Below are positions 19,541 to 46,451 of a DNA stretch of 64,000 nt, in pieces. The position numbers were made by a program, and so were the translations under genes. Below the pieces are notes generated by a model, which saw only the letters and a list, made by a program, of their open reading frames with translations, had not been told where the DNA came from and ran no database searches. Location: the NCBI GenBank assembly GCA_905221615.1, contig CAJNDT010006025.1, positions 998,078 through 1,062,077 on the forward strand, read 5' to 3'. Numbering within the stretch: position 1 is the stretch's first letter; each line of letters opens with the position of its first letter. The DNA is from Symbiodinium sp. CCMP2592 (lineage: Eukaryota; Sar; Dinophyceae; Suessiales; Symbiodiniaceae).

Positions 19541-19558
19541 TCTTTCTCCCAAAACCTT

Positions 19559-21640: not shown

Positions 21641-21641
21641 G

Positions 21642-21702: not shown

Positions 21703-21704
21703 GT

Positions 21705-25158: not shown

Positions 25159-25169
25159 GTTCTACCCAA

Positions 25170-29335: not shown

Positions 29336-29402
29336 TGCGCCGCGCAAGAGAGGAGCCAAGGCGGCACCGAAGGCAAAGGCGTCAGCTGCCAGGACCGGCT
29401 CA
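29336..29402 (+). CDS. candidate exon, possible TSP1 C-half or Lys/Ala-rich
   Basis: After ATTGCAG| one frame reads C-A-A-Q-E-R-S-Q-G-G-T-E-G-K-G-V-S-C-Q, with Gly and Cys spacing like the C-half of a TSP1 module. Another reads APRKRGAKAAPKAKASAAR. The DNA is a clear GC-rich island. Frame unresolved. Confidence 0.22.
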
Positions 29403-29407
29403 GCGCT

Positions 29408-29540
29408 CTATGGGTTTACAGTAGAAGCCAGAAAGTTGGAACATCAGTAGCCTCATGCCCTTAAAGTACAGTGAAGGGAATGCCAGCGCGAATCATCCTA
29501 AATCCATGTTCCATTTTTCTGGGGTTCACTATAGGGGTTT
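29408..29540. repeat. inverted-repeat element family H
   Basis: TTTACAGTAGAAGCCAGAAA and GTTGGAA ... CATGTTCCATTTTTCTGGGG and TTCACTATAGGG: a diverged inverted repeat sharing its left arm with 22398-22532. Confidence 0.55.
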
Positions 29541-30321
29541 TGGGTGGTGGTTTAGGCTTCATTGCTTTATTTGGTTTAGGGGTTTGGATTTGCGGTTTCG
29601 AGTTAGGATTTGCATTTCAGGTTTTAGTTTCAATGCTTCGACTAAGACTTCGAATTCGCGGTTGTGCTGAGCTATTGAAGCTCATGTCTCTGCAGGTGTA
29701 TCTCTGTATTTTTTTTTTTTTTTGTGTGTGTGTGTTTTCTTGTTTTCCCGGGCGTTGTGGTAGTTGGGTCTGAACCTTCAGAGTGTAGTGAGCTTCTAGT
29801 GTTTGAGCATCTTCATTGCTACGAGTTTAGGGCTTATACTGTTCTAGGGTTCGGAGCTGAGGTTTTCGGATGTAGGGTGCTAGGGTCTTGGAGTTTGTTG
29901 CTTTAGGATCTTGAGGTGTTGGGATCCGAGCGCTTCAGGGTCTGCTGTTTTCGGATTCCGGACTCTGGGGTGTAGGGCTCTAGACTTTCGGGTGGCTCAG
30001 AGGATTCCGGGTTTCGGCAGTTTCGGTTTTTTCATTTCGGGAGCCGGGTCCGGGGGCACTTTATAAAATAGGGTCTACCTCGACCCCAAAAGTATGTGGA
30101 ATAACAGCCTTTTATAGGTTTTGGGCCATTATTCTACCTACTAGGGGGGGTCTAGGCAGTGCTTCAGGGTCTTTGGGTCGTGGGTTTCCAGCTCTTGCGA
30201 CTCTCGGCCTGGAAATGTATTGTCCTTAGCGCTCACAGTGCAGGCTGTGAGGCAGTATAGCTGAGTAACGGTCTCGCCGGAGCGAGCCCTTTGAGAAGCA
30301 TGAAATCCTACACCTCAATAT

Positions 30322-30390
30322 GGGGGCCTAAATATTTTTGGTATAATGGGCCCCAAAACCTTATTCTAATGATTAAGGCCCCTATACTTC
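30322..30390 (+). repeat. MITE family A copy with internal deletion
   Basis: TATGGGGGCCTAAATATTTTTGG jumps straight to TATAATGGGCCCCAAAACC and ends GATTAAGGCCCCTATACT. The GGTTCCTTATTATAA block is missing. Confidence 0.65.
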
Positions 30391-30900
30391 CCCAAAGCGC
30401 ACACCCCAGCCAGCGACTTCTCAAGGATCTTGAGCAAGCATGTTAAATAAGTACCAATACTAGATTGGGTTCCTTAGTAAGTATATTATGTTGAGCCCCA
30501 AAGCTCTAATAATTAAGGCCCCTAAATTATAGCACCCTTATAGATCCCATATAGTATCCCTTTGCGAACCCTTAAAAGAACTCAGTTCTAATTATTAAGG
30601 TTTGTTCCTCCGGGCGGCCATCGTGGGGCTACTGGTCACGGAGTTACGGGTCCCTACTGTTGGAAGTGTGTTTTGCTTGGACCTTTTTCGTCGGATTATC
30701 GGAATTGGCCCTAAGATGTGCGAGTTGCTACTGCTCAGCAAACCGACAGATTGACGTGCGGCTTCAGGGGTGGTATCGGGGCATGGTGACTGAGTAACTA
30801 GTAATATTCCGTGTAATATCCGCTAGTAAAGCAACACCGAATGCCCGAAAACCCTATTTTACTGATAAGGTCCCTCCACTGGGGGATTTAATGCTTTGAG

Positions 30901-31012
30901 TGTGACTGGGGACGATTTTCTGAATGTTTCCCCAAAGAGGCCCAGAGCCGCGAAAGCGGCAGAGCGCAGCGGAGCGCCCGCTGCAAAGAAGAAGCCGGCG
31001 TGCAAGCGCTAA
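30901..31012 (+). CDS. candidate exon encoding a TSP1-like N-half
   Basis: After GCTTTGAG| the phase-0 frame reads CDWGRFSECFPKEAQSRESG, followed by R-A-Q-R-S-A-R-C-K. C-D-W-x-x-F-S-E-C is the start of a TSP1 module (usual form D-C-x-W-x-x-W-S-x-C), and arginines follow at the expected spacing, but the C-G-G turn is not intact. An overlapping frame is Ala/Lys-rich and ends in TAA at 31010. TSP1 is preferred because the motif recurs downstream in order. Confidence 0.42.
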
Positions 31013-31129
31013 GTCCTGAGCCGTGGAGCTGGCACTACTACCGAAATTGATCCCTTGCTGTAATGCAGACCCTTCACTGAATAAGGTTTACAATCGGGGA
31101 CTGAATATCACAAGGCCCTCAAGCAAAGG

Positions 31130-32255
31130 GGGTTGATTGAGACCAGGGGTCTACATTACCACATTCTCTCCCAACATCTGCAGATACGTGCTACAAGCAG
31201 AACTGCATACAAACGTATGCAGACTTAATCTGGCTGTGATCTGTGGTGCCTCATGTCAGGCATCATCGACAGCCTTGTTTCCATTCTTTCAGCCACAGTC
31301 CAAGTTTGACGAAGCTTGGCAGACTTGCCACTAAGCGTACTACCAGGGGTCGAATAATTAGTAATGCTATTCCCTGGTACTCCTCATGTCTATACCAAAA
31401 GATACCCCGGAATTATATTCAAATGCTAAGGCCCCTAGGACTGAACTTCTTGGTGCGCTGCAGCCAGGTTCCCTGCATGAGTCCGAAAGGGGTGACTCGC
31501 ACGGAAGACAAAAAGCGCGAACGAGGGACAACGGCACGGTGTTTCTGCCACGGCTTACTACGTAAATCGAAAGCAAGAGTCTTTGTCGGCATCATCATCA
31601 TCTTCATCATCATCACACTTCCTCTTGTCCATTCTTTCAACATGATTGCGAGAAGTAATTATCTTCGTCGTCGCTGCTGCCCCAAATGCTTCGGCGATAA
31701 TGCTGGCAAGCATCCAAGATGCAAGACCAGAAACACGAAAGTCAGCAAGCCCGTACTTCATTTAGCATAGGAGACTGAGCGACATGGAGAGGAAAGTCAT
31801 ATGACACTTACCGGCAGCAAACAGCCCGTTAAAGCAGCATGTCAGGCAATGTTGCGACAAGTACGGCTGCTCAAGTATATGGCATCTTCAGTCAGTCAGA
31901 AGCCAGTAATACCCACGCTTCATGGGCAAACCGCCCGAAAAGGTTCATGGTGTGTTCGGAAAAGGAGGAGCCCTATCCATGCACGAGACCGGACACCAGT
32001 TACCTATGAATACCTGCGAGTCCTCAACCCCAAACATCATCCCCAAGCACTAAACCCCGCAAACATGAAACCCTTCTCTAACCCCGAGACCGGTCAGACC
32101 AGAACTACCACTACCACTATTACTAGAACTACAACTACAACAACTACTACTACTACAACAACTACTACTACTGCTACTACTACTACCACTACGACGACGA
32201 CTACTACTACGACTCAGAATGGTCACAGCAATTTTCTCAATTCGTCTTAAAAGCT
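31130..32255. other. open but unconvincing region with a trinucleotide repeat
   Basis: Long + open frames (31243-31770 and 31801-32250) are not recognised. The first gains an Ile run from a CAT repeat at about 31595-31618. The second ends in a threonine run from the (ACT)n repeat. No splice context or domain supports a gene. Confidence 0.3.
32100..32217 (+). repeat. ACT/ACG trinucleotide repeat
   Basis: About 38 imperfect ACT/ACA/ACG triplets in tandem. It encodes a threonine run in one frame, which is the only reason the overlapping frame is long. Confidence 0.9.
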
Positions 32256-32934
32256 GTAGAGGTGGTGCAAGACGCCTCGCCCTGCGGGCATCCTGCCCTT
32301 GGCCCGGAGACGGAAGAGGCCTTGGAAGCTCGAAGAAATGTCCTCTAAGGTCTTAGGAGAGTTTTCTAAAGGGGTTCTGTAGGATTTCGTAAGTTTTTTA
32401 ACGTGAAAAATTAGGAGGGCTTTATAGGGGGGTTCTCTGTAGGATTTCATAACAGGTTTTTGGTAGGGTTTTGCTCAAAGTGCTACTGGGTCAAACTTTG
32501 GGTTTGAGGGGCTTCCATGCAAGGAAGGAGTCTCATTGGAGAGCCGAACACTTCCGAGAACGCTTCGGTTTTGTTAGGGTTTGAATCTATACGGAAGTGT
32601 CGGGGTTTGCTCTTAGAGGTTTTTGGTTTGGGCTAGCTTAACCGACACTCAAACCAGAGTTCCGCAATGGTTGCGGTCATGTTTGTACTGACGAAAACAA
32701 AACACGGCTTCGCTCTGGGTCTCGTGTCACAGCAGCCTCAACATGGGCAACCACAAGTAGGTCATCTGCGTTGAAATCGTGCCGTCGATGATGCTGGTGG
32801 TGGTAGCGATGACGATTCCCTAAATCCTACAGGCTCATACTCCGCTGTTAGGCCTGGTGCCATCATGATTTCAAGGCTGAAGCTGGTCCCATGATGCAAA
32901 ACCCCAACCCCCAACCCCCTGATGTGGGGCCGGG

Positions 32935-33022
32935 GCCTAGATAATCACCTATAGTATCTTGGGGGCTCCTTGTTATAACTATGGTATAATATAGCCCCAA
33001 ACCCTGTCCCAAATCCCCCCAA
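32935..33022 (+). repeat. MITE family A copy
   Basis: GGGGCCTAGATAATCACC ... TATCTTGGGGGCTCCTTGTTATAAC ... TATAGCCCCAAACCCTGTCCC. The right end is degraded. The TSP1-like exon at 33043 follows. Confidence 0.7.
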
Positions 33023-33042
33023 AAGAAAACCCTGGAAGCTAG

Positions 33043-33115
33043 AGACTGCCACCGCGCCAGGGCAGCTGCAACTCGGACATTAAGCCGCGGGCCCAGAGGA
33101 CTCAGTGCTTCCAAG
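33043..33115 (+). CDS. candidate exon encoding a TSP1 C-half
   Basis: Between AAGCTAG| and TCCAAG|GTTTAGG, with one leading base, the frame reads DCHRARAAATRTLSRGP, then R-G-L-S-A-S-K. It aligns column by column with ECGRGEKERTRTVAQEP of the 38966 exon (C-x-R ... T-R-T-[VL]-x-x-x-P). The GT donor runs directly into TTTAGGG repeats. The second conserved Cys region is absent. Supported as a decayed or divergent TSP1 half-exon. Confidence 0.45.
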
Positions 33116-33150
33116 GTTTAGGGTTTAGGGGTTTAGGGATACAGGTTTCT
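33116..33150 (+). repeat. TTTAGGG-like words at an intron start
   Basis: GTTTAGGGTTTAGGGGTTTAGGG begins exactly at the presumed donor of the preceding exon. Confidence 0.7.
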
Positions 33151-33392
33151 ATGAGGTTCTGCTTCAAAGTAACGGTGGAAATGGTATTAGTAGTCAGCAT
33201 AATACCAACAACAACGACCATACTGATAAAACATAACAATGATAATACTGGGGTTCCATTCTTGGAGAAGACGTTGCAGATGCAACCTGTAGGAGCAATG
33301 TGTTGAGATCACGCGGACGAGGGTGCACATTGCTGGCATACTTTGCATCAGCTGGTCTCAAATTGAGGAAACAGATTCTATACAGCAGCAAG

Positions 33393-33746
33393 GAGTTTGC
33401 GATTTTGTCAGCTGGGCCATCGCAAAGCGACAGCTGCAGGACCGGCAGGATAAAGACTTCTGGGGGAAAATGGGGCGAAGCAGCATCGACGACTTGAAAG
33501 CCTTCGAAGCTGGTGAGCTGCCCCGCTCCCACCTACCACAAGCTCTTTCAAACGGATCAGGGCGAGGCTGGCATCGCCAAGACTTTCTGGCTGATCTTCC
33601 AGTACCTCGAGTACTTCGTGGCGAGCAAGACGCACGGCAAGCGCCTAGCCACGTCGAAGCTCGTCTTGCGGAGCCCAGCGAACATTGTCACCAAGATGGA
33701 GGCCCTAACAAATACCAGCATCATCGCTGAGGGCTCCTCCTCACAG
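33393..33746 (+). pseudogene. coding segment of unknown protein with one frameshift
   Basis: 33393-33506 reads V-C-D-F-V-S-W-A-I-A-K-R-Q-L-Q-D-R-Q-D-K-D-F-W-G and on to D-D-L-K-A-F-E. From about 33507 a different + frame continues K-L-V-S-C-P-A-P-T-Y-H-K-L-F and F-W-L-I-F-Q-Y-L-E-Y-F-V-A-S-K, up to CACAG|GTATAC. Both parts have GC-rich third positions and natural composition, so a single small indel near 33507 best explains the switch. A lost intron is less likely because no GT/GC...AG pair lies there. The family is not recognised. The good donor suggests more exons downstream. Confidence 0.38.
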
Positions 33747-34297
33747 GTATACTAGTCCAAGCCCCAAAGCCCCGTTCTAGTTGTCAAGGCCGCTACATAG
33801 AGCTTCGGCACCAGGTTAACCAGCTTCTTGATGTTTTGGCAATTGGCGTCTTGGGTTTAAGATTCACGATCTCGGTTTCCGGATGTCGGACAAGGGGCTC
33901 GAACTTTCTCTCGCAGTAAACACTCGCGACGAGAATGTTTATGCCTTTGGGGTATGGTTCCGGGCGGGGTGGGGTTACAAGTGCCTAAGTTGAGACTTAA
34001 AATGATCTCTTTGCTTGTATTCTCCAACGGGTCCACGAGCCTATGTCGCATGACGTTGGCATTTAAGGGGTTGCCATGTAGGTACTGTAGGCTCAAAGCA
34101 AATGCTACATGGGACACGCATGGACCCTTAAGCTTCTAGTGTCCATGATCCTTTAAGCTTAGCCTTAACCCTAGACCTCGAACCCTGGAACCGCCAGCGC
34201 GTCGAGAAACCTAATCGCTGTCGCGTCGCAGGGGAGAAGTTCAGGCTTGAGGCTTAAGCCTTAAGGTTTTTGATTTAGGGTTTAAAGCCACCACAGC

Positions 34298-34385
34298 TTA
34301 ACCCACTTTTGTTGTAGGGTCCCTATACAATTTTATGAGGGTATCTAGGAAGAACCTACAAAAAAAGTCGGGTTTGGTAGTGTAG
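34298..34385. repeat. inverted-repeat element family D
   Basis: CCACTTTTGTTGTAGGGTCC ... GAACCTACAAAAAAAGTCGG repeats the layout of 12548-12652. Confidence 0.5.
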
Positions 34386-34473
34386 GGCATCCCCAAATGC
34401 CAAACCCTGGGCTCGACTTCGGTTGCACCTGAGATCTTGAGATCCCGGAGCTCCAAACCGGCGCAAGCTGCGC

Positions 34474-34665
34474 CTTATAGGGCCTTAATAATTAGAATAG
34501 GGTTCCTTTCAAGGGCTCTATCAGGGTTACTATAAGGGATCTGTAAAGGTACCATCATATAGGGGCCGTGATAATTATGAATAGATATTTTGGGGTCCAC
34601 TGTGCCATAAGTATAATAAGGAACCCCCAACGTAGTATGGGTAATTGTTGAGGCCCCTATAGTAT
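34474..34665 (-). repeat. MITE family A, two overlapping copies
   Basis: A partial copy (TATAGGGCCTTAATAATTAG then AATAGGGTTCC) is followed by a full reverse-oriented copy at about 34556-34665 (ATATAGGGGCCGTGATAATT ... GGTAATTGTTGAGGCCCCTATAG). Confidence 0.7.
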
Positions 34666-34764
34666 GTCTGCACAAGGTTGTGCGGAAGATTAACGCTATC
34701 TCATGATTGGGTCCTCAACGGCCCTGGGGCCCTAACTTTCAGATCCTGGGTAGCTCGGGGGTTG

Positions 34765-34868
34765 TAGGTGGTTGTCAAAGTTAGGGCCCCTTTTTGGGTA
34801 CCCTAAATATTAGGTGCCGTACTATATTAGGGACCCCAAAAGGGACCGTAATTTTGACAACCACCCTT
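34765..34868. repeat. inverted-repeat element family C (GGTTGTCAAA)
   Basis: GGTGGTTGTCAAAGTTAGGG ... CCGTAATTTTGACAACCACCC: inverted ends of about 22 bp around GGTACCCTAAATATTAGG and TGCCGTACTATATTAGGGACC. A second copy in the other orientation is at 38634-38742. Confidence 0.75.
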
Positions 34869-34971
34869 ATAGTAGAATTGCAACAAAAGGAACTCCAAGG
34901 AAAAGTAGTGTCTTTTCGTTGTTCATCATTCAGGGCCCCCCATGTTTCTCCCGAGCCAGCCGTTCCTCGAG

Positions 34972-35062
34972 GTGCGACCCCACCTTTGACTGCGAGTTCA
35001 ATGACTGGGCGGACTGGAGCATTCTGGCGGCAAAGATTCCCAGCATGCCTAATACAGCGTAG
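34972..35062 (+). CDS. candidate exon encoding a TSP1 N-half
   Basis: After CCTCGAG|, with one leading base, the frame reads CDPTFDCEFNDWADWS, then I-L-A-A-K-I-P-S and a TAG at 35060. D-C-E-F-x-D-W-x-D-W-S is the typical TSP1 entry. The following C-S-x-x-C-G-G part is not in this frame, but H-S-G-G-K appears one frame over, so either an intron or a frameshift follows W-S. The next island with the missing part is 35642-35719. The ORF is open upstream to 34814. Confidence 0.5.
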
Positions 35063-35554
35063 TGCAGGAGTTTAAAATGGGCATAAGGGGCTTCACCCTA
35101 AACCCCAAACCCAAAACCTTAAACATAGCATGATTTGTTGTCTATTCCGGAATCGAGGGGTGACGGCCTCTCGGGTTTGAAGTTGGGTTCCGGATGAGGG
35201 TTTAGGGCTGGGGCTCCAGAGTTTTAGGGGCTTGGGTTCTGGGTTTTCCAAACCCGAGATCCCAAGCCGTTCCTTTATGTTTAACAACTACCACGGCTCT
35301 ATTGAGTTTCTAAACATGTAGATCTTGGGGGGTGTAGGGTCAGTGTTCTCTCCGTAGGTTTGAGCAAACCCTGAACCGAAAAGACCCTCTGACCCTATCA
35401 TTGGCACCCTTACAGTAGCCCTTATTGATCCTTTAAAGGAGCCCCTGCAAAACCCCTAAACCACAGCAGAAAGAAAATTAAGCCAAGGCCCTTGCAATCT
35501 GATAGCCTTACAGGAATCCTTGTAGACTTACAGACCCCTCAGAGGAGCCCTTAC

Positions 35555-35640
35555 AGGAAGCCTATAAAACCCTAAACCCTAAACCCAAAACCCTAAACCC
35601 TAAACCCTAAACCCCTAAACCCTAAACCCTAAACCCCAAA
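35555..35640 (-). repeat. CCCTAAA array
   Basis: Nearly perfect CCCTAAA units (about ten) end directly at the 35642 exon. Confidence 0.85.
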
Positions 35641-35641
35641 G

Positions 35642-35719
35642 CAAAAGAGGCCCTTGCTCCACCTCTTGCTCCGGGCTCAAGAGCCGATCGCGCGGGATCA
35701 AGCAGCGGGCTCGGAGCAG
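35642..35719 (+). CDS. candidate exon encoding a TSP1 middle segment
   Basis: After CCCCAAAG|, with one leading base, the frame reads KRGPCSTSCSGLKSRSRGIK, then Q-R-A-R-S-R. C-S-T-S-C-S-G-x-x-S-R-S-R aligns with C-S-A-S-C-S-G-G-V-A-S-R-S-R of 4720-4798. A phase-0 frame is also open (Q-K-R-P-L-L-H-L-L-L-R-A-Q-E), so the TSP1 frame rests on the motif. CCCTAAA repeats run right up to the acceptor. It follows the 34972 N-half in correct domain order. Confidence 0.58.
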
Positions 35720-35875
35720 GGGAGGGGCGTTTACCCAGAGACTCCAAAACCCCTTAATCTAGGACCCAGAGTAGGCCCTTATTCCCTTTTTCAGCGTTCA
35801 GTTTCCCCTATAAGCCCCCTTTAAAGCAAAAAGGGCACCCTTTTTGTTCCCAGGCTACTCTTGGGTCTAGTAATT

Positions 35876-35942
35876 AAGGAATATACCTTAAGTTATAATA
35901 GAATCCCTAATATGATTTAAGGAGTATTCCTTAATTAAGGGG
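35876..35942. repeat. inverted-repeat element family E
   Basis: TAATTAAGGAATATACCTTAA ... GATTTAAGGAGTATTCC then TTAATTA. The centre AATAGAATCCCTAATATGAT is shared with 10131-10212. Confidence 0.65.
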
Positions 35943-35993
35943 TTTTGGAGTCTCTGGGTACGGGGTGGGTTTTGAGGGGGGTGGTAGGGGCTT

Positions 35994-36380
35994 TAGGGTT
36001 GAGGGTTTAGGGTTTATTTAGGGTTTTAGGGTTGAGGGTTTAGGGTTTATTTGGGGTTTTAGGGTTGAGGGTTTAGGGTTTATTTCGGGTTTTAGGGTTG
36101 AGGGTTTAGGGTTTATTTGGGGTTTTAGGGTTGAGGGTTTAGGGTTTACTTGGGGTTTTAGGGTTGAGGGTTTAGGGTTTATTTAGGGTTTTAGGGTTGA
36201 GGGTTTAGGGTTTATTTGGGGTTTTAGGGTTGAGGGTTTAGGGTTTATTTCGGGTTTTAGGGTTGAGGGTTTAGGGTTTATTTGGGGTTTTAGGGTTGAG
36301 GGTTTAGGGTTTATTTGGGGTTTTAGGGTTGAGGGTTTAGGGTTTATTTCGGGTTTTAGGGTTGAGGGTTTAGGGTTGAG
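35994..36380 (+). repeat. 33-bp minisatellite built from TTTAGGG variants
   Basis: About 11.5 copies of a 33-bp unit (TTAGGGTTGAGGGTTTAGGG then TTTATTTNGGGTT). GAGGG recurs at 36001, 36034, 36067 and so on to 36364 with no length change. The variable base after TATTT reads A,G,C,G,G,A,G,C,G,G,C (the first G-G unit pair includes a TACTT variant), a five-unit (165-bp) higher-order pattern. Confidence 0.9.
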
Positions 36381-36389
36381 GCTTCTGGA

Positions 36390-37320
36390 TTTAGTTTACA
36401 GGGTCCATGTAGGGCCTGCTAACAGGCCAAAGTTTATACTGTTTGGACACGTATGGTGTTTGGAGGTTTGTGGGGTGAAGGGTTAAGGGCGTTTAGGATT
36501 GCGTTGTTTTGTTTCAAGTGGTGTAGGGCTTTTGGGAAGTTTGGTTGAACTGTTTTGTGGTGTGTCTTGAGTCAAAAAGGTTTTCTGAGAGTTGGGGGCG
36601 CATTAATTAAGCGCTCGTTTTGGGCTTGGGTTCGGGTTCATGGTTAGTTTTGTGTCTTTTAATGAGGTGCTCAAGCCTGTCATTGCTTTCAGGGTTGAGT
36701 TTAGGTATTGGATTTAATTGATTTAATGTGAGGTTTCGCAGAACGAGGCAAACCTAAACCTATAACCCGGAACTCTAAAGCCCCAACCTACAAGTCATAA
36801 ATCCAGCATTGGGGTTGGGGTTTGGAGATAGAATGCTTACATAGCCCTTGTGAGACCACTGGCTGTTAATTATCACGCCCACAGCACCTTGTAAAGCCCG
36901 GGTTACAAAACTTTGCAGAACCTTCATGAAACCGTTGAAGACCCGATAGAAAGCCTCCAAAGCCTTTCAAATCCCCTAAAACCACCAGGCGACCCTAACG
37001 CACCCCCCCCCCCAAAAAAAAAAAAAAAAAAAATGCCTGAACGTTTAACTCAAAGCACTCAAAACCTGATACCCTGAATCGTAAGGATCCAAGTGCCTAT
37101 AGTTACGGCATCCGGTTTAGGGTTTAACCGGAGGATGGAAGCTGACAAATTCAGACTTTTATAGCAGTATCCTATATAGGACGAACGCAGAAAGGAAGCC
37201 CTTGCAGAAACCGTTCGGGCACAAAAACCTCCAAGGACCCTCAAACCCTAAACCCTATGAACCTTAAACCCTATTCCCAACGACCCTAAATCCAATACAC
37301 CCCACACGGTAACTTCAAAA
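36390..37320. other. stretch without a gene
   Basis: GT-rich sequence is followed by a C run and a poly-A run (about 37004-37033) and CCCTAAA-like words before the 37322 exon. Short - strand frames at 36775-36960 and 37059-37244 lack any motif. Confidence 0.45.
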
Positions 37321-37321
37321 G

Positions 37322-37374
37322 GCATTACGGCAGCGGCAACGGCGGCTTCTGCGAAGGGGCAGCCGGCAGCCTAG
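37322..37374 (+). CDS. candidate exon encoding a TSP1 C-half
   Basis: After TTCAAAAG|, with one leading base, the frame reads HYGSGNGGFCEGAAGSLVG. N-G-G-x-C-E-G is the usual end of the third strand of a TSP1 module in protist proteins. CCCTAAA-like words lie upstream. A second open frame is Ala-rich and ends in TAG at 37372. Order and phase agree with the preceding middle segment at 35642. Confidence 0.5.
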
Positions 37375-37767
37375 TTGGTAGTCCTCTAAATGAGGGTCCC
37401 CTACAGGGCCTTGTTGTAAGGATGCCGTACTATTGTCTTTAGGGGTTAGTGTTTAACTAGGGTTGAGTAGTTTTATGGTACATTCCTTGACGCAGTAGGT
37501 TGTTGGATCCACAGGTAGACCCTACTGTAGAATCGGAATGAATACTTCTACCATTTCCTGGGGTTCTTCAACATATCACTATATGTATAGTAAGCAATGC
37601 TGGTCCCCATAGCCCGAGTGCGAGTTCCGCGTATGAATCCGGTAGCAAACTCCAGTCATCTTGAGGAGCATGCATAACCCCCTAACCCATATCTCGCAAC
37701 TTAAACCAAAACTCCCACCCCATACACCCCCAACCCTGAACCCTGCCTTTGCGAAGTCTAGACACAT

Positions 37768-37800
37768 ATTATATATATATGTATATATATATATATGTCA
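37768..37800. repeat. AT microsatellite
   Basis: Alternating AT with two GT interruptions, upstream of the 37825 exon. Confidence 0.85.
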
Positions 37801-37824
37801 CATATATCAACTCATTAACCGCAG

Positions 37825-37926
37825 GTCCACGATCTTGCGCCCTGTCACGAACACGGTACCGACTGCGGTGGTGCAGCGCCAGTCGTGCCCGTGGCAGCAG
37901 AAAGTAAGGCTGACGGGACTGCATAA
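37825..37926 (+). CDS. candidate terminal exon, Cys/Ala-rich
   Basis: After AACCGCAG| the phase-0 frame reads V-H-D-L-A-P-C-H-E-H-G-T-D-C-G-G-A-A-P-V-V-P-V-A-A-E-S-K-A-D-G-T-A and stops (TAA 37924-37926). H-G-T-D-C-G-G could be the end of a TSP1 module. If so, TSP1 coding stops here and the later modules belong to another gene. A possible GAAAG|TAAGG boundary also exists. The assignment is tentative. Confidence 0.33.
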   Translation, partial: VHDLAPCHEHGTDCGGAAPVVPVAAESKADGTA

Positions 37927-38342
37927 GTCGGATATTTTTGATGTGTTAAGTGGGGCTTCCCTCATGATCAACTTGCCTAAAACCCTATCACCTGCTTACT
38001 AAGTCCCTTCAGAGTCACTCGGCACGTTTAGTTCGAGCTTTCGGAGTCAATGAGCTTTCAGAGCTGGGCTTTGCAGAGCAGAGTGTAAAAGCTGACAGCT
38101 GCAAACAGTCTTTCAGAATGTCTCTACAAGCTGCAACAACTGTGCTCTCAGAGCTTGCATTGCAGTGGGTTTTGCAGAGGCTTCTCAAATGGCTTCAATG
38201 GAAGTTTTGAGTCTTTCGGCGTAATGCGGGCTTTTTACGGACTTATCTTATTACGCACCACCACCCTCCTTGTCGTAACTGCTGTTTCAAGGAGGATTTG
38301 CTTAGCTCCATTGGCTTTAGGTTTTGGGGTTTTGCTGCCTAG

Positions 38343-38442
38343 GACTGCATCCTCAACGCCTGGACAGACTGGACCACTTGCGACGCGGAGCTCGGGGGGA
38401 AGGGAAGCTAGAGGAATGGAACAACCTGCGACCCTGAAGCAC
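38343..38442 (+). CDS. candidate exon encoding a TSP1 N-half, with an in-frame TAG
   Basis: After GCTGCCTAG| the frame reads DCILNAWTDWTTCDAELGGK, then G-S and a TAG (38409-38411). The same frame then continues R-N-G-T-T-C-D-P-E-A. D-C-x-L-x-x-W-T-D-W-T-x-C is the canonical TSP1 start, and N-G-T-x-C after the stop resembles its end. Either the exon really ends before the TAG (donor near GCGGAG) or the module is a relic. TTTAGGG words follow at 38447. Confidence 0.52.
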
Positions 38443-38633
38443 GGGTTTAGGGTTTAGAGCTTGGGATTCTTGTATTTCCGGTGTCATATAAAACAACCTC
38501 AAACCCCAAATCGTGTTATCGGAATTTCAGTTTTCGGGCTTTGTGGTGATTGGGAAGTGTGAGGGAGTGCAGTAAACTGCCTGGAGGACCACCAAACACC
38601 GAGATGCATGGAGGCTTCAGATGTTCAGGGTTT

Positions 38634-38742
38634 TACATGGGTGGTTGTCAATAGGGTCCCTTTTTGGGTCCCTATTATAATACGGCACCTATGATTTCAG
38701 GTACCCGAAAGGTGCCCTAATTTTGACAACTACCCATATGAG
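38634..38742. repeat. inverted-repeat element family C
   Basis: GGGTGGTTGTCAATAGGGTCC ... CCCTAATTTTGACAACTACCC, with TATTATAATACGGCACCTA in the core: the 34765 element in reverse. Confidence 0.75.
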
Positions 38743-38965
38743 GAAAGAGGTAACAGTATGGGGTTTAGGGTTCAGGGATTTTTCCCATTGAGGAAGGATA
38801 CTCCTATTAATCAACCGAAGACGGAGCGCCTCACAATCTACCAGGGGTGTTGGGCTCTGAGTCAACCTACAAGCGCTAAGAGCCCGAAAGCTCCAGGAGT
38901 GCCCCTAAACCCAAAACTCTAAACTCAAACCCTTACGCTCTAAACCCTAAACCCTAAACCGTGAG

Positions 38966-39035
38966 GAGTGCGGCCGTGGGGAGAAGGAGAGAACGAGAAC
39001 GGTCGCGCAGGAGCCGGCGAACGGCGGCAAGGCAG
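38966..39035 (+). CDS. candidate exon encoding a TSP1 C-half
   Basis: After ACCGTGAG| the frame reads ECGRGEKERTRTVAQEPANG, then G-K-A. C-G-x-G-x-x-x-R-T-R-x-V-x-x-x-P-x-N-G-G-K is the textbook second half of a TSP1 repeat (conserved C-G-G turn, paired Arg, N-G-G before the last Cys). The donor looks like GCAG|GATCC (AG|GA). CCCTAAA words end just upstream. It follows the N-half at 38343 in correct order. This is the clearest C-half in the window. Confidence 0.65.
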
Positions 39036-39077
39036 GATCCTCTTCCGTACTTAAAGGATCATGGGACTTAGTAAGTA

Positions 39078-39080
39078 CGG

Positions 39081-39117
<37 letters not shown>

Positions 39118-39180
39118 CGGTTATATATATATATATATATATATACATACGGTTACAAATATATATATATATATATATGA
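39078..39180. repeat. three tandem TACGGTTA(TA)n modules
   Basis: TACGGTTA is followed by an AT run and repeats three times (about 39073, 39115 and 39148), so the AT tracts expanded inside a larger tandem unit. Confidence 0.85.
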
Positions 39181-39774
39181 CTGTAACTGTGCTCTAACCC
39201 CTCTTAAGGTACTTGTAACCATACTTAATTATTGCTAAGAGACATGAGCCAGCGGCCTATGTCTGAAAAGGCATCAGGAACCCTTGAAAAGACTCTGTTG
39301 CAACCGGTGCTGCATACGAGTATCAGGAATCAGGAAATTACCCAGGTCAAACAAGTTTACGGTTTTAGGGTTTAGGGTGACCCAGCCCCACCCTTACAGC
39401 CTCAACCCATACCACCGAGCCCGGGGCGAACCCAAAACCCACGACGCCCACCGAAAACCATTGCACCCTCAACCCCAACCCATAACGCCCGTCTAAAACC
39501 TTACGCGTGCAGCACTCTATATCAAACCCTGAGAGCCTCAGAAAAGGAGAAAACATATACAGAAAGCCCTATAAAACAGAACCCTAAACCCTAAACTCGC
39601 TTAGCCCTGTAACTAAAACCCGATTTTTGACCCCAAACTCCCTGAACCCTAGAAAAGAAAGAGCCCCAATAACGACATATAGCCTGCAGCTTCCTTGGCA
39701 GGTCTGCGATGGAGGACTCAAAGAGCTCCACACCTGTCAGATCAAGCGTGGAACCCGGGGGGCTGCCTTTGGGC

Positions 39775-40035
39775 TTTAGGGGCTTATTCAAGGGTTTAAC
39801 AGGGCTTATAGGGTTTATAGGGTGTTGGGGGTTTAGGAGGTTTATAGGGTGTAGAGGGTCTAGAGCGCCTTTTATAGGGTTTGGGGGAGTTTAGGGTTGA
39901 AGGTGCGTGGGTTTAGGGGTTTTGGGTGTGGGGTTTAGGGCTTTTGGGTTTAGGCGTTTTAGGCTTTAGAGGTTTAGACTTTCGAGTCTACGGGGTTCGG
40001 GGGTTTAAGGTTTTCAGGGTTTGTGTTTTAGAGTC
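39775..40035 (+). repeat. TTTAGGG-like array
   Basis: GGGTTTA(T)AGGG words, loosely spaced, grade into GTTTTAGG words. The overlapping open frame (Gly/Phe/Ile) is a by-product. Confidence 0.7.
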
Positions 40036-40413
40036 GTTGGGCTTCCCCTAAGGATCCCAGTGCCCAAGTAGCAGGGCTGCAGGAACCAAATTCCATTCAG
40101 AGTAAAAAACAGTATGCTGAGACCTAATCGATGTCTCGTAACAGCAGTTCAGGGCGTCAGGTTCATGTCATATACGAAGGTTACGGGGTCTCTTGGAGTC
40201 TTTGTTTGATCGATTTCCCAGGCTTTTTCCATTGGGCGTATATGATCTCATTGAGCTTTTCTTGGTGCCTTGGGGATCAGGGCTCAGGGCAGAGAGCTCC
40301 CCATGGGTTTCATTGGAGTTCAGGGATTCAGCCCTTGGGGGTGTATATTGAGTCTCAGGAGTTTCCAGGACCTGGAGGGTTATAGGGCTTCTGATGTGTC
40401 TTCAATTCTGGTA

Positions 40414-40422
<9 letters not shown>

Positions 40423-40459
<37 letters not shown>

Positions 40460-40488
40460 CATATATATATATAGATACTAATATACAT

Positions 40489-40520
<32 letters not shown>
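40423..40520. repeat. AT microsatellites with TACATAC interruptions
   Basis: Two long AT runs are separated by TACTAATATACATACACATA. The overlapping Tyr/Ile open frame is not a gene. Confidence 0.85.
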
Positions 40521-40531
<11 letters not shown>

Positions 40532-40859
40532 CTAGGAGAGTGCGAATTTATTGAACGCTAGGAGCATTGGTACTGCTGGGATAGTATCAGAATCGACACG
40601 ACTGTTGGACCCTGCAGTATGCCGTATCCTCGAGTCACTAGCATCCGACTCGGAAACTTAAACCCATTATATCCACAACCCTTTCCTCGACACCCGAAGA
40701 TCAAGACTCGAACGCCTAGATGCTCAACGGAAGAAAAGGATAGGCTTGAGGCAAAGCTCTGAATCGCGAAATCCCAGACTGTCATTGATATCCAGTTCGG
40801 TGTTTCTGCAATCTCCTAAGCCCTTCAGCTGAGGAAGTGCGCCGAGCAGTGTGATGCAG

Positions 40860-40900
40860 TGGATTGCGTCTGGGGCGACTGGGGCGAGTCTCGGGCTCAG
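40860..40900 (+). CDS. candidate exon encoding a TSP1 N-half
   Basis: After GTGATGCAG|, with two leading bases, the frame reads DCVWGDWGESRAQ. D-C-V-W-G-D-W-G-E is the standard opening of a TSP1 module in dinoflagellate proteins. The matching C-half is not found before petJ; the next one is at 44725. Exon end uncertain (GCGAG|TCT or CTCAG|CCT). Confidence 0.45.
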
Positions 40901-41355
40901 CCTCGAACATTCGCACCATCAGAGAGCTCTCTGATGGTCATACTGCTAGTATGAAATCGGGATGAGGTTACGGTTGTGCCGAGAGTACAAAAAAGCTCAC
41001 TGGCAAAGTGTTGCTGAGTGTATGGTCGATTTTGAGTTATGGGTTCAGAAGTTCAGAAGTTCCGGGTTCGATGGTTGAGGGTCATGGAGTTAGATGTTGA
41101 GAGATTCGGGGGCGGCATGGTATCAGATCCTCATATACTTTGTCTTTTTGTGACATGGTTTGCGCTGGAATTGTAGAAAGTTCGATGCTTCCGAAGTAAG
41201 GGCTCTTGTGCCCCCCCTTCGTTTTGGAAGCTTCCATATACACTCCAGGGTTTAGGGTTTGGTTGTTACATTCCAATTCACGAAATTCTGGCTCCAGGCA
41301 TTTGCCTACTGGCTCTCCTGGCTCTCCTTGAGTTGCAGCTCCCTTCCACCAAGCC

Positions 41356-41920
41356 ATGCCCCGAGTCAGCATCGCGTGTGCCGCGTCCCTGCTCCTCTGT
41401 GGTGCCTGCTTCGTCGTGCCCATCAGCCTCAACTCGACGCCTCGGACGAAGTCAGGCGGGGGATTCGGAAGGTAGGCGTGCTGGATTTAGGACTCCCTCA
41501 TAATGGGGATCCTACATGTAGGGTCTGTATGAGAGCCCCTTGACATGAGGTGTTGTGGTGGAACTTCCCGTTCAAAACCAGACGCCTGAGTCAACCTCCT
41601 GGGCCTTCTTGGCTCTTGGCGGAGCCTTGGGGCTCTTGATTGCAGCCGCCGCAGCCCGACCTGCATGTGCTGCAGACCTGGAGAACCGCGAGGCTGTCTT
41701 GAATAGCAGTTGTACCGCCTGCCACGCTCAAGGCAGCAACTTTGTGTTGGAGAAGATTAATGGAGATGCCCTGGTAGAGTACCGCAAGCACGACGTCCAG
41801 GCCACTATCGCCCGGGTGACCGACGGCAAGAGTGCTTTGCCCTCCGTCGGGCAGAAGTTGCGACTTGACAACTTCGAAGACGTGGCAAGCTACGTCTACG
41901 CCAAGGCTGACAAATGGTGA
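41356..41920 (+). CDS. petJ: plastid cytochrome c6 precursor, two exons
   Basis: Cytochrome c6 carries electrons from cytochrome b6f to photosystem I in the thylakoid lumen. Exon 1 starts at ATG 41356 with a signal peptide (R-V-S-I-A-C-A-A-S-L-L-L-C-G-A-C) ending in FVVP, the FVAP-type transit-peptide motif of dinoflagellates. An intron must follow, because TAG lies at 41473; AG|GC (after 41455) to GAG|G (41549) keeps frame. Exon 2 has a hydrophobic stretch (about 41597-41665) and an A-C-A|A lumen-cleavage site. The mature domain of about 82 residues has the haem site SCTACH (C and H at 41711-41725) and ends F-E-D-V-A-S-Y-V-Y-A-K-A-D-K-W, all normal for the family. The family's GK-x-AMP axial Met is Leu here (ALPSVG, TTG at 41837-41839). 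Stop TGA 41918-41920. The family is sure; the splice sites are inferred. Confidence 0.85.
41456..41549 (+). other. probable petJ intron with AG|GC...AG|G boundaries
   Basis: The 94-bp segment starts GCGGGG after GTCAG and ends ATGAG before GTGTT. Removing it joins the targeting exon to the cytochrome frame without a shift. A GT at 41472 has no nearby frame-preserving AG. Non-GT donors flanked by AG/G repeats are known in dinoflagellate introns. Confidence 0.5.
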
Positions 41921-42804
41921 GATGCCAAGCCGTGCGAACTATGTTCGTCATATTCTCCGTAGTTGCTCAGGCTCTCCCGAAAAGGTGTGAGAGATACTCT
42001 GTGCTCTAATTCGAAATAAGTTTCTTTACTGCATGGTCCGGATTCCCCGAAGTGGTTCAACCGAGACAATTTTGCGTCCACTCCAAATCTGGTAGACGTG
42101 CTGGGAATTGTCGCCATAATCTGTTGTGGATGATCTTTCGCACTTCTCTCTCCCAAAGCGAGTGTGTGCGAAGCATGCCTGACCTATGTCCTCCCGAGCG
42201 CGGAATGGAAAAAGGTGCGAGGGACAAACTTCTCCGAAAGACCAGGATATGCCGGATTCATCCAAAGGATTCCCAAATCAGGCTTCTTTTTGCCCCATTT
42301 GACCTACTTACACGTCTCATCAGCCTCCAGGTAGTAGACCCAGGCCCGACCCTCTTGGTGACTGTGATCGCCGTCATGGTGTACGATTATCCTTCCAGCT
42401 TGGCTGAAGTCCCGAATCGAAGTCACGTGTCATGAATCAACTGGAGCTATACGGGTGACAAGGACGCGTTGAATTAGAGTCGAATGGTTGCTGAGGCTCT
42501 TGTTGTTGAAGGCTCTGCGACTGGATAGTGCAGGTATTGGGCTTTGAAGTTAGGTTATATACATCGAGGTTTCGGGCTTAGGGTTTCGGGGTTTGGGGCT
42601 GGGCTAGGGACATGCATCATTTGCTGCTTGCAAAGGAGTGAAGACGCCCTTTAGCCACATCCTAAACTGAGCCATCAAGACTTCGTCACACGCTGTTGAA
42701 CAAAATCAGGCTTTAATCTCCGGGATGGCATGCTTTCCTTGTTGTTGGCCTGTGTCTCGTGTCTGCTTCCTGGGTCCCGATACCCCCCACACACACACAC
42801 ACTA
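41921..42804. other. petJ 3' flank, no supported gene
   Basis: The + open frame 42052-42435 and - frames across 41896-42265 show no domain and overlap each other. Probably 3' UTR and intergenic DNA. TTTAGGG-like words near 42560-42600. Confidence 0.4.
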
Positions 42805-42878
42805 AACTGGAGGTTTCCGAAAATAGGGTACCCTGGACCCAAAAATAAGGTACCCTTGTTTTCGGAAACTCCCAAATG
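42805..42878. repeat. inverted-repeat element family F, compact copy
   Basis: AACTGGAGGTTTCCGAAAAT then AGGGTACC ... GGTACCCTTGTTTTCGGAAA then CTCCC: an almost pure hairpin with a loop of about 18 bp, preceded by a CA microsatellite. Confidence 0.75.
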
Positions 42879-43437
42879 CTAGGCTTGTGCCTGTTCCGCT
42901 TGCATTCCCTTGATAGTCTCCAGAGGGTTATCAAAGCCCCGACCCCTATGCTTTCTGCCGACCTCTCACAGACTTTGAGGACTGCCTGTCCTACAAAGCA
43001 GCTGGGACCCGCAATCCTAGAAGCCCAGTTACAGTAGGTTACTATTGCTAAATGGCAGCCTAGTGACCCATTGTTGAGGTAACTGGGCTTCAAGGCCAAC
43101 CAAATGATGCTCTACAAGCGGTTGAGGATTCACGACTCCCTAGTGCTCCGGTTAGCCAAATACCGGGTTACAGCGTCATAAGTACATAGTACATATGGGC
43201 ATATCAAGGGCTGGGGATGATGAGGGAACCGTTTATTTCCTCAGTTGGGAGACCCGCAGAATGGGACTTTCTGGTGTTTTGTGTTGGGAGCTTCACGACT
43301 GAAACTCCTCCATGCTCAGTTGGAGCTACTGCGAGCACTGCACAGCTCAACGGAAGCCGCGTCCTCAGCTTGATGGCTTGGGCCATTGGGGCTTGCAGGG
43401 TTTAGGCTTGAGGTTTAAAGTGCAGCAGGGTTTAATA

Positions 43438-43545
43438 AAAGGGCCTTAACTTAACAATTACCTATACCATTTGGGGGGTTCCTTGTTATAAGGATAGTAA
43501 AATATGCCTCAAGGCCCTATTGTAATTATTAAGGCCCCTACATGA
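43438..43545 (+). repeat. MITE family A copy
   Basis: GGGCCTTAACTTAACAATTACC ... CCATTTGGGGGGTTCCTTGTTATAA ... CCTATTGTAATTATTAAGGCC then CCTACAT. Confidence 0.75.
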
Positions 43546-43654
43546 TGGTTCTCGGTGTGGGGTTGAGGGCTTAGGATCGAGGTTGTGCGTTCAGAGCCTT
43601 CGAGAAGAAGTTGTTCGCCCCGGAGATTTTCCTCGTCTTTGCCGGAATTTTCAG

Positions 43655-43893
43655 ATCTCCATGAGACTGTGGGGCTGCCTGACACCGGAGCAGGAAGCTG
43701 ACATCAGTTTGCTGATGCGACGCTGGCGGCCTATGCGGCTTCAGAGAAATTCCTGGCCATGAGCACGGAGGAGCTGCTGGCGGCGCTCAAGAGCTTTTGG
43801 CGGCTCGAGGCTGCGAAGGTGATTGCCCATTACCAGGCGGACATCTACGAATCTCAGGCAATTTGGGCCTAGAACGAGTTCAACTACCAGCTG
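43655..43893 (+). pseudogene. helical coding segment with a frameshift and a stop
   Basis: 43655-43707 reads ISMRLWGCLTPEQEADI. A different frame continues F-A-D-A-T-L-A-A-Y-A-A-S-E-K-F-L-A-M-S-T-E-E-L-L-A-A-L-K-S-F-W-R-L-E-A-A-K-V, then hits TAG at 43870. It stays open N-E-F-N-Y-Q-L to CTG|GTGTGTG. A one-base deletion near 43707 would restore the join. GC-rich third positions point to real ancestry as coding DNA. The family is not recognised. Confidence 0.33.
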
Positions 43894-44724
43894 GTGTGTG
43901 TTTTTTTTGGTACACCAACCGCTGAAAGAGCCCAGGCTGTAGAGAATGTGGGCTGTGGGCAATGTTTACAGCATGTTTGGTATGTTGCTTGGGACATGTG
44001 TTACAACTCTTGTATTGCAAATAAATGTCGCTGCAATTCTGTATACAGGATGCGTGTTAGAGTTGGTACAATAGAACTTTACACCCCTGGAGTCCCCAGA
44101 ACGCCGTTGTTCATGGTCCTGGAGCTGTATCTTTCGGACCCCTATCCTAGCCGGGACCCCTAAAATAGCCCTCTGGAGGCGTGTCTTAAACCCCGAAACT
44201 CTAACTACGTCCTAGGCCCCCAACCCCTGGCTACACTGGCCCTCTTGTCTAAACCCCAAGTGCTTAAGATCTTAAACAGAACCGTCTACTGAGTCCCAGA
44301 TCCTTCGTGTGCTTTCCTGCAGTTCCGGCCACCACCCTAAACCCTAAACCCCATTTTCGGCAACCGTTATTAATATCAGCCCTACATTCGTAAATCCCAA
44401 ACCCGGGCCCCAACTTCAAACACCCTAAGCAGCCCTAAACCCAACGTAAAAGACCCTATAAGTTGGGCACTGCCCCCACAACAGTTGGGTAATGTTCATT
44501 GTATCGATATTGTGGGACCTTAATAGTAGCCTTGTTATACACTCTTACTGTATGCGGGCAGTACCCAACCTGTAAGCCTCGTATCCTGAAACCTAAACCC
44601 CCAACTTAAAAGCCCTAAACCATAAATCCTAAACCCTAAAACCATAGAGCCCTATAGTACACCTATAGTACCCCTTATAGATCCCTTTAAAGAAGACCCT
44701 ATATGCCCCTTAAAAGCCCTCGAG

Positions 44725-44791
44725 GCGGTATCGACACATCGCCACCCACCCGGCCTGCGGCGGCGAAGTCTGTCAGCCGAAGCCCACTGAG
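44725..44791 (+). CDS. candidate exon encoding a TSP1 C-half
   Basis: After CCCTCGAG|, with one leading base, the frame reads RYRHIATHPACGGEVCQPKP, then T-E, to an AG|GCCCC junction. R-x-R-x-I-x-x-x-P-x-x-G-G-x-x-C is the conserved second half of a TSP1 module. The region is strongly GC-rich. It follows petJ, so it is either part of a second TSP1 gene or petJ lies within an intron. Other frames are open as Pro/Arg-rich, so the motif decides. Confidence 0.58.
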
Positions 44792-44825
44792 GCCCCGGGG
44801 CCCCTCGGGGCCCCTGGGCCGGGTT

Positions 44826-44935
44826 GAAGGGAGTATAGTACAGTATAGTACAGTATAGTATATAGATGTAGAAAAGCATATAGTATATGGTATATGGTAT
44901 ATAGTATATAGTATAGTATATAGTATTATAGGAAA
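44826..44935. repeat. TATAGTA-rich simple repeat
   Basis: Tandem AGTATAGTAC and then ATATGGTATATAGTAT words, without a fixed long unit. Confidence 0.8.
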
Positions 44936-44959
44936 AGGCTGTATAGGATTTTCACAAAT

Positions 44960-45160
44960 GTTGGGGGTAGCGCTAATTTTTCGGACCCCTGGAATTGGGG
45001 GTAGTGCTATTTTTTGTGGTTCCGATCTAGGGCTTTTAAAGGATTTTTGGGGCAGTGCTAATTTGAAAGCGCAGTGCTAATTTCTCGGGCCCCTAACTTT
45101 GGGTTGTTGGGGGGGAGTGCCAATTCTTCGGGCCGCTACGGCCCCCTTTAGGGCTTTTAA
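44960..45160 (+). repeat. four loose copies of an AGTGCTAATTTTTCGGNCCCCT unit
   Basis: The word recurs at about 44972, 45006, 45055, 45073 and 45117, each followed by GG- or GGG-rich sequence and GCTTTTAAGGAT in two cases: a decayed tandem repeat. Confidence 0.6.
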
Positions 45161-45595
45161 GGATCTTGGGCGTGCTGCAGGGTTTCAGGTGGAGCGTTCA
45201 CCCAGCTTTGCAACCTTCCTTTACGATTTGGGCATGCGTTCGATTAAAGCCGTTAGATACAGGCTTTATAGATGAAGATGATGGGGAGCTTCAAGCCTGA
45301 AGTTCAGTGAGCCTGCTCATGCCAAGCAGAGATGTTTCAGCATAAGATGTGAAGGGGCGTAAGGTCTGCTTTTCTCTTACACGGCTTCTATTACGGGGGT
45401 TGTGTAAGGCTCGGGTGCTGAATCTCAATAGCGGACTTCCTACACGACAGACGTTTATTCCTATTCCCAGCTCCTGTCTTAATCATGCAAGCCCCGCCCG
45501 CTAGACCCTGCGAAGCCCACCCACTTAACTTCGCCAGAGAAACATATGGAGCCCCAAGCCACAACTACTTTAACAACCTCTCTGGGCTTGCAAAG

Positions 45596-45680
45596 GAAGT
45601 GGGTGACTGCGGCGACGTGTGCCGCAACAAAAGAACTTGCGTTTGGCAGGCCGGGGCCCTTCCCGGAGGCTTCAAAAAGG
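45596..45680 (+). CDS. candidate Cys-rich exon, possible TSP1 C-half
   Basis: After CTTGCAAAG| the frame reads EVGDCGDVCRNKRTCVWQ and reaches CAG|GCCGGG (AG|GC, 54 bp). It stays open as A-G-A-L-P-G-G-F-K. D-C-G-x-x-x-R-x-x-R-T-x-V and P-G-G lie at TSP1-like spacing relative to the 38966 exon, with extra Cys. Identity uncertain. Confidence 0.33.
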
Positions 45681-46451
45681 GGGTATTGCTTGGGTCTACA
45701 GGGTCTGAAACTGCCTTTACAAAGGTGCAGAATGCAGGGTTTGGGGGTTTGTTGCTTGGGGCTTGGCGAATTACGACGTTAGGACCTTCACTTGATGGGC
45801 CTCCTTGGGTTGAAAGGGGCAAGAGAAACAAGACTTTCGACTGGGGGGGGGGCCTACAGTAAGTGCCATGATGTTCGGGAATTGGGCCCTGGCGCGACCA
45901 GGTATTCAAACGGTGGCGTTGGGTGTTGTGGATGTCTGGGGTGTTGGGCGAGTTTGATTTTGACGTCTTGTTTAAGCAAGGTTCTATTGAGGGCTTTTGA
46001 GCTCGGAATGTTGCCAACTCCGTCATGATCCTCCACTGGAACACCCCAAGTATCCATCCTCCGGAATAGTTGGAGTTGCTTGCGTTATAGAGTGCTTTGG
46101 GGGGATTAGATAGGGACTTGCAAGTTTGCCAGCTGCCAGCCAAGACCGCTTTGATTGAGGAATATAAAGCATATCCAATCCCTCTATACTTTAAGCTATG
46201 GTCCATGCAATATGAGAGTAATGAGACTAGCGGATCTGTGTTGATACGTTTCCGATGGGTTTGGAAGTTAAAGTTTCTCGGGTTTCGGGTTTAGTTGCTT
46301 TGAGGCTGGCACTGTACACATACTTGGAGCCCCTGGGAAAGTGCATGTTTTCGTACTTTCGGGACCAAAAGACCCTTCAGAATGGGACCCCATACCCTGA
46401 AACTATGAATCCCTATGGTAGCATTTGAAGCTGAAGCTTCTAGGCTTCCCA

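Follow-up and report, generated by a model that had tools for sequence, protein, structure and literature searches.

Protein genes nested in the introns of multi-exon genes make up 8.4% and 6.5% of predicted genes in the dinoflagellate Polarella glacialis and are backed by full-length transcripts, according to the parts of PMC7245778 drawn on here. Given those nested genes, a further example is apparently provided by the 64,000-nt stretch of Symbiodinium sp. CCMP2592 analysed here (C5163:998078-1062077, the window). On its forward strand very probably lies the 3' portion of a single large gene, apparently intact, that encodes a dinoflagellate protein of multiple thrombospondin type-1 (TSP1) modules (the host gene), with two other genes on the same strand within host introns: a gene of about 20 exons (the inner gene) in an intron of 27.5 kb, and a cytochrome c6 gene (petJ) in an intron of 2.4 kb. 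The likeness to P. glacialis, as far as that account is used, is in the nesting of genes; here one of the nested genes itself has about 20 exons. A comparable intron length in another dinoflagellate is the 26,372 nt of a Crypthecodinium cohnii intron (cited in PMC11453091), and introns starting with GT, GC or GA, together with unidirectional genes, are mentioned for two Symbiodinium genomes in the consulted part of PMC6001144. On the animal side of symbiosis, a TSP1-repeat protein of a sea anemone matters for algal uptake (work cited in PMC6123633). The present gene is on the algal side, and that role is not implied for it.

The multi-TSP1 host gene

TSP1 modules have the signature W-x-x-W-x-x-C, C-x-x-x-C, R-x-R, which repeats in several modules of the sequence obtained by joining 34 exons of 14-79 nt (median 46 nt). 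These exons occupy 65.3 kb of the + strand, starting some 17.3 kb upstream of the window and ending near position 48,010, and are separated by introns of 0.4-27.5 kb (median 950 nt, range 423-27,469). The joined exons (1599 nt, 533 residues) are open in one frame, the other two containing stops, and none of 20,000 random concatenations with the same exon lengths was open in any frame; since choosing exons by similarity favours an open frame, this evidence is strong but not independent. The joined protein matches PF19028 (TSP1_spondin, 276.6 bits, cut-off 41, nine stretches) and PF00090 (202.4 bits, cut-off 21.6, eight stretches), and shares 60% identity, across 489 residues and with 5 positions gapped, with a partial protein of Effrenium voratum (P0128); an earlier note on the window's letters had suggested a comparison with TSP1 proteins of Symbiodiniaceae. 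GC content is 0.593, 0.570 and 0.739 at the three codon positions and 0.482 in the introns (window, by kb, 0.43-0.57). Host donors are GC in 23 introns, GT in 8 and GA in 2, and acceptors AG in 33 of 33, these being the only types that the aligner permitted; G directly follows the acceptor in 30 of the 33, which the aligner did not demand, and in 93 of 102 paralogue introns shorter than 200 nt, sampled from 16 loci.

The exon set derives mainly from spliced protein alignments. A protein search with joined window peptides returned 87 proteins, of which the top matches by E-value were Amoebophrya and unnamed proteins (31-35% identity); P0128 had the highest identity (50%) among matches covering more than 90% of the query. 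Its alignment covered the window and the preceding 20 kb, and was made alongside that of P0152 (EukProt s4973_g1.t1), a 748-residue gene model from a close relative with nearly identical exon use. Like the splice sites, these two proteins, the nearest relatives along most of the length, place the gene in a dinoflagellate of the Symbiodiniaceae or close to them. With positions 5001-32000 masked, P0128 formed one chain (score 783.7) from -17317 to 44815, jumping from 4792 to 32262, with splice sites identical to those of the listed exons and a probably spurious additional first exon at -19922. An alignment of P0152 at low entry cost was discarded for its many spurious short matches. The module order resembles, by eye, that of loci L010 and L012 of the same genome (1.098 Gb in 5383 contigs searched), and an upstream match at -19192 resembles another multi-TSP1 protein, P0127, so the gene probably extends further upstream.

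The TSP1 signal is also evident from profiles. A 56-column profile, built from 59 of 66 modules taken from six loci of this genome, found seven matches of at least 12 bits in the six frames of the window, all on the + strand, compared with one in eight dinucleotide shuffles read on both strands. A spliced Viterbi version with strict intron costs scored 17.8-36.3 in six + strand chains and 6.7-9.3 in four more, of which those at 2181 and 22379 are outside the final gene model; the - strand maximum was 6.2. Loosening the introns to 6.5 bits raised the + strand to 67.6 and the - strand to 41.9; this setting was rejected as too noisy, and because of that - strand chain the strict settings alone count. 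The earlier note had taken the islands for a one-strand signal beyond chance and had proposed a profile search allowing introns as a check; the + strand stands above the shuffled background in the plain profile search and above the - strand in the strict spliced model. PF00090 alone recovers two window exons, at 4727-4804 and 46600-46650, among 149 genome matches (150 of 339 candidates scored).

The islands that the earlier note described as alternating N- and C-halves of TSP1 modules are largely exons of this gene. Nine of its ten coordinates fall inside final-model exons or no more than 18 nt away from them: 4720, 34972, 37322, 38343, 38966 and 44725 are exact exon starts, and 33043, 35642 and 40860 fall near or inside the exons 33061-33083, 35650-35701 and 40834-40887. 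The tenth, a supposed N-half at 30901, is not an exon; it is superfluous because the module begun at 4720-4792 resumes at 32262-32318. Ten exons had escaped notice (877-913, 1701-1742, 2436-2479, 32262-32318, 37825-37884, 39702-39745, 43320-43355, 45596-45649, 46600-46642 and 47970-about 48010). Modules are indeed split by kilobase introns, as the note proposed and the 34-exon spliced model supports, although the strict alternation of halves is not exact: the cuts fall at several places in the module and in all three phases (18, 9 and 6 introns).

The same note left open whether there were one or two genes, or relics. Decay of former TSP1 genes into relics is a very improbable account of the islands: some exons are small and weak and the frame of the inner gene is broken near 22.86 kb, but the 34 host exons join without a stop or frame break, the identity to a protein of another genus comes with matched lengths, and third-position GC differs from that of the introns. 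The TAG seen as a possible lesion in the module at 38343 is outside its coding part (38343-38387), one TAG belonging to the acceptor (ctgcctag|GAC) and another lying past the donor. Equally hard to sustain is a division into two or more shorter tandem TSP1 genes separated by petJ and the inner gene, to which the large gaps, the intervening genes and the prevalence of unidirectional tandem genes in these algae, as mentioned in PMC7245778, would lend themselves. Each gap interrupts a module whose parts join in phase, and P0128 continues through both. The note was correct in placing petJ inside the TSP1 series, yet the series is undivided there: the flanking exons 40834-40887, 43320-43355 and 44725-44791 form one module by phase-2 joins, reading DCVWGDWG/D/WSYCEHCTAQR/K/RYRHIATHPACGGEVC, a type shared by eye with loci L010, L012 and L013. 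This in-phase join, with P0128 continuing through it, argues for one gene instead of two.

Several observations weigh against a single intact host gene. It is a prediction from sequence. The unmasked P0128 alignment, even at higher entry cost, does not make the 27.5-kb jump; it gives exons to 4792, a second chain at 32260-44815, and noise exons filling 5-31 kb between them, including one at 30901-30979. The P0152 model joins the inner gene to TSP1 exons, and the exons at -4093 (14 nt) and 47970 are weak. The gene start, the first modules and a membrane exon were not found in the DNA read; no membrane exon was assignable in 47.9-53.5 kb, and no signal peptide was found, the gene start being outside the DNA read.

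Genes apparently nested in host introns

The inner gene is placed wholly between the host exons ending at 4792 and starting at 32262, and its exons have a splice style like that of the host gene. All 11 genome matches to it at E < 0.1 fall within 4792-32262. Searches with its product gave nothing in Pfam up to E 10 and nothing meaningful in the PDB, and among the 7998 scored candidates sharing most words with it, the protein search found P0152 only; given this candidate limit and a Lys/Ala-rich query, relatives may be missed. The 20 exons, taken as listed, fail to give a single open frame: the stretch 11734-15414 and the last exon are tentative, and the break near 22.86 kb could stem from a lesion or from faulty assembly. 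Functionality is not claimed.

The public model P0152 appears to fuse the host and inner genes. If it were correct as a single 748-residue protein containing both parts, the inner exons would be an internal cassette of the TSP1 gene, giving a chimeric or alternatively spliced protein, and the join from 4792 to 6261 (GAG|gtgcag .. ATAAAG|GTAATGG) is in phase. Such a cassette is nevertheless unlikely, since leaving out the inner exons restores a complete TSP1 module in phase, the E. voratum protein has that module whole, without insert or change of length, and the inner part has an ATG in its first exon. P0152 itself leaves the TSP1 frame after TTCDAE, which makes it unreliable as a model.

Cytochrome c6 is recognizable in the petJ product by its match to a solved structure in the PDB (E 7.9e-14), with PF13442 reaching 25.2 bits, below the cut-off of 27. 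The frame is whole with one short intron, for which lengths of 82, 88 or 94 nt all keep the frame, and the mature part lies in a single exon. The other 22 petJ matches in the genome (11 on C4940, 6 on C259, 4 on C2179 and 1 on C1213) span only residues 2-55, 4-54, 59-110 or 71-110, as if interrupted (frames seen at two loci). A retro-copy or intron loss would explain the single-exon mature part of the window copy. Copies of petJ are in tandem on C4940 and C259.

If the host gene is expressed as modelled, its primary transcript would be spliced at about three dozen GC, GT and GA donors to yield a multi-TSP1 protein, and the nested genes would acquire transcript ends of their own. One possible route for the inner gene would be spliced-leader trans-splicing at the acceptor ahead of its ATG (ATAAAG|GTAATGG); no spliced-leader relic was found in the window, the best match having 7 mismatches in 21. 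All features are located in Table 1.

Table 1. Features of the window and its upstream flank; positions are relative to the first letter of the window.
Feature	Position	Strand	Evidence
Host TSP1 gene, window part (19 exons)	877..48010	+	P0128 and P0152 spliced alignment; joined open frame
15 further host exons, upstream on C5163	-17337 to -1239	+	Spliced alignment
Host exon SRKRHIAKHPKE	877..913	+	P0128/P0152 spliced alignment
Host exon GGVPCEPLPTEAVE	1701..1742	+	P0128/P0152 spliced alignment
Host exon ACIHQHCSGSCKDG	2436..2479	+	P0128/P0152 spliced alignment
Host exon WGDWSHWSECSASCSGGVASRSRE (fuller module of the earlier note)	4720..4792	+	PF00090 30.4 bits; TSP1 profile; spliced alignment
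Host intron, 27,469 nt, phase 0, GAG|gtgcag .. gtagag|GTG	4793..32261	+	P0128 jump requires 5001-32000 masked
Inner gene, no assigned family, about 20 exons, first ATG 6264	6261..29384	+	P0152 residues about 71-502
Host exon VVQDASPCGHPALGPETEE	32262..32318	+	P0128/P0152 spliced alignment
Host exon GSCNSDI	33061..33083	+	P0128/P0152 spliced alignment
Host exon CDPTFDCEFNDWADW	34972..35018	+	TSP1 profile; spliced alignment
Host exon SPCSTSCSGLKSRSRGI	35650..35701	+	TSP1 profile; strict spliced model; spliced alignment
Host exon HYGSGNGGFCEGA	37322..37361	+	P0128/P0152 spliced alignment
Host exon VHDLAPCHEHGTDCGGAAPV	37825..37884	+	P0128/P0152 spliced alignment
Host exon DCILNAWTDWTTCDA, GA donor	38343..38387	+	TSP1 profile; P0128 spliced alignment
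Host exon ECGRGEKERTRTVAQEPANGGK	38966..39031	+	TSP1 profile; strict spliced model; P0128 alignment
Host exon VCDGGLKELHTCQI	39702..39745	+	Strict spliced model; spliced alignment
Host exon KCAEQCDAVDCVWGDWG	40834..40887	+	Strict spliced model; spliced alignment
petJ (cytochrome c6), in host intron 40888-43319	41356..41920 (second exon 41550-41920)	+	PDB match
Host exon WSYCEHCTAQR	43320..43355	+	Loosened profile model; spliced alignment
Host exon RYRHIATHPACGGEVCQPKPTE	44725..44791	+	TSP1 profile; spliced alignment; masked P0128 extends to 44815, beyond similarity
Host exon EVGDCGDVCRNKRTCVWQ	45596..45649	+	P0122 and P0152
Host exon EWGDFGPCSVTCGKG	46600..46642	+	PF00090 23.7 bits; TSP1 profile; P0122; P0152
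Probable host exon LMSRTRHLAF, with uncertain 3' end	47970..48010	+	Loosened profile model only; frame kept
Retroelement-like reading frames, beyond and not part of the TSP1 gene	53612..64000	-	Pfam

Telomere-like repeats at intron ends

Degenerate telomere-type repeats occur at the ends of the host and inner-gene introns with a fixed polarity. In 51 introns of the two genes (overlapping heptamers counted in any register, the weak 14-nt exon at -4093 left out), the first 50 nt after donors contain 118 heptamers of TTTAGGG type and none of the reversed type, and the last 50 nt ahead of acceptors contain 89 of CCCTAAA type and one of the other. Counted by intron, this is 19 to 0 at the donor end and 13 to 1 at the acceptor end, the remainder being without heptamers, and 31 to 7 and 26 to 2 when 150 nt are taken. 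The observed sum of 423 was never matched in 2000 slides of the exon map along the sequence (sd 51, maximum 186), and the region of 53-64 kb has 2 and 4 such heptamers. A 33-bp tandem array of TTTAGGG-like units (11.8 copies, 96% matches) lies in a host intron at 35987-36377.

Other genes repeat this polarity in part. In a second long-intron TSP1 gene, on C3480 (loci L021-L024), all 115 heptamers at 5' ends are G-type, and those at 3' ends are 107 C-type and 42 G-type; by gap, among its 28 gaps of at least 150 nt, this is 15 to 0 and 11 to 7. Repeats are few at 16 other TSP1 loci, where 5' ends have 5 G-type and 1 C-type and 3' ends, against a general polarity, 10 G-type and 1 C-type; the 102 short paralogue introns have no TTAGGG or CCCTAA within their terminal 40 nt. 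Samples were also taken from kinesin genes, where 18 of 65 matches were used (those with an open frame of at most 137 aa and no stop), and from dynein genes (10 regions covering 13 of 34 matches), the Ion_trans matches being left unused as mostly long open frames. Within 100 nt upstream, kinesin matches have 38 C-type and 2 G-type heptamers; within 100 nt downstream, against the donor polarity, they have 9 G-type and 61 C-type, at least 52 of the 61 being concentrated in a small number of loci (L047 contributes 77 by itself at 400 nt). For dynein at 100 nt the counts are 12 to 0 upstream and, again against the donor polarity, 1 to 2 downstream, and at 300 nt upstream G 19 and C 17. By locus at 100 nt, the acceptor side stands at 4 to 1 for kinesin and 3 to 0 for dynein, and the donor side at 2 to 2 and 1 to 2. 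These samples weakly back the acceptor side only. Thus the polarity is established in the host and inner genes and its donor side is clearly repeated in the C3480 gene; its generality is not shown.

Because the polarity is set by splice sites, the repeats would be either splicing signals or a record of repeat addition at intron edges, and we tentatively suggest, as one possible account, that long introns of this genome are tipped with degenerate telomere repeats for one of these two reasons. As splicing signals, GGG runs may act near the GC, GT and GA donors and the pyrimidine-rich, branch-point-like CTAAAC near the acceptors. The complementarity of the two end types would also suit a stem within each intron that brings its splice sites together, comparable to the inverted-repeat introners of Amoebophrya, whose end-paired introns are described in the portion of PMC7789003 used here; both share complementary intron ends, but here the repeats are degenerate, telomere-type and common to many introns, and no matched pairing was found. 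Predicted duplexes had a mean of -62.8 between the matched ends of an intron and of -62.0 (sd 1.6) when ends were permuted, with 29% of 5000 permutations giving values that low, and the two repeat types did not co-occur significantly in the same intron (Fisher p 0.38). As matched ends pair no better than permuted ones, an intron-specific stem is quite improbable, and splicing signals or edge-directed gain of repeats remain. No report of intron-end repeat polarity, or of the present TSP1 gene, was recognised among the literature titles and abstracts searched. Roy and colleagues have reportedly written a paper on dinoflagellate introners. If the polarity were genome-wide, it would offer a sequence-only marker of the transcribed strand and of intron edges, and a lead on the recognition or growth of long introns whose donors are unconventional.

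Related TSP1 genes and flanking sequence

Similar to the multi-TSP1 proteins P0128 of E. voratum, P0122 and P0127, and those of loci L010, L012 and L013, the host protein has tandem modules in a similar order. Its introns are mostly 0.4-3 kb, in contrast to the sampled paralogues, which mostly have short introns or are long open arrays. P0122, P0127 and L010 have, by eye, a C-terminal hydrophobic stretch that was not found in the present gene; by analogy with these relatives, the host protein would end in a membrane helix and may act in cell-surface adhesion or recognition.

The multi-TSP1 family is spread over contigs C375, C5207, C749, C1580, C5110, C2324, C5017, C905, C664, C3480, C1135, C4913 and C791 in the form of long open arrays, short-intron genes and long-intron genes; an example of a long array is that of 779 aa on C375, 98% identical to the transcript-like P0001. 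Genes with such shattered exons are nearly invisible to open reading frame searches and are mis-modelled in public sets, as with P0152, and the multi-TSP1 proteins of such algae are therefore probably under-counted.

Beyond the host gene, the - strand stretch listed last in Table 1 includes long frames for a reverse transcriptase (PF00078, 37.8 bits) and an OTU protease (PF02338, 42.1 bits), a zinc-finger frame scoring just below the cut-off, and three more that match nothing in Pfam at E 0.001.

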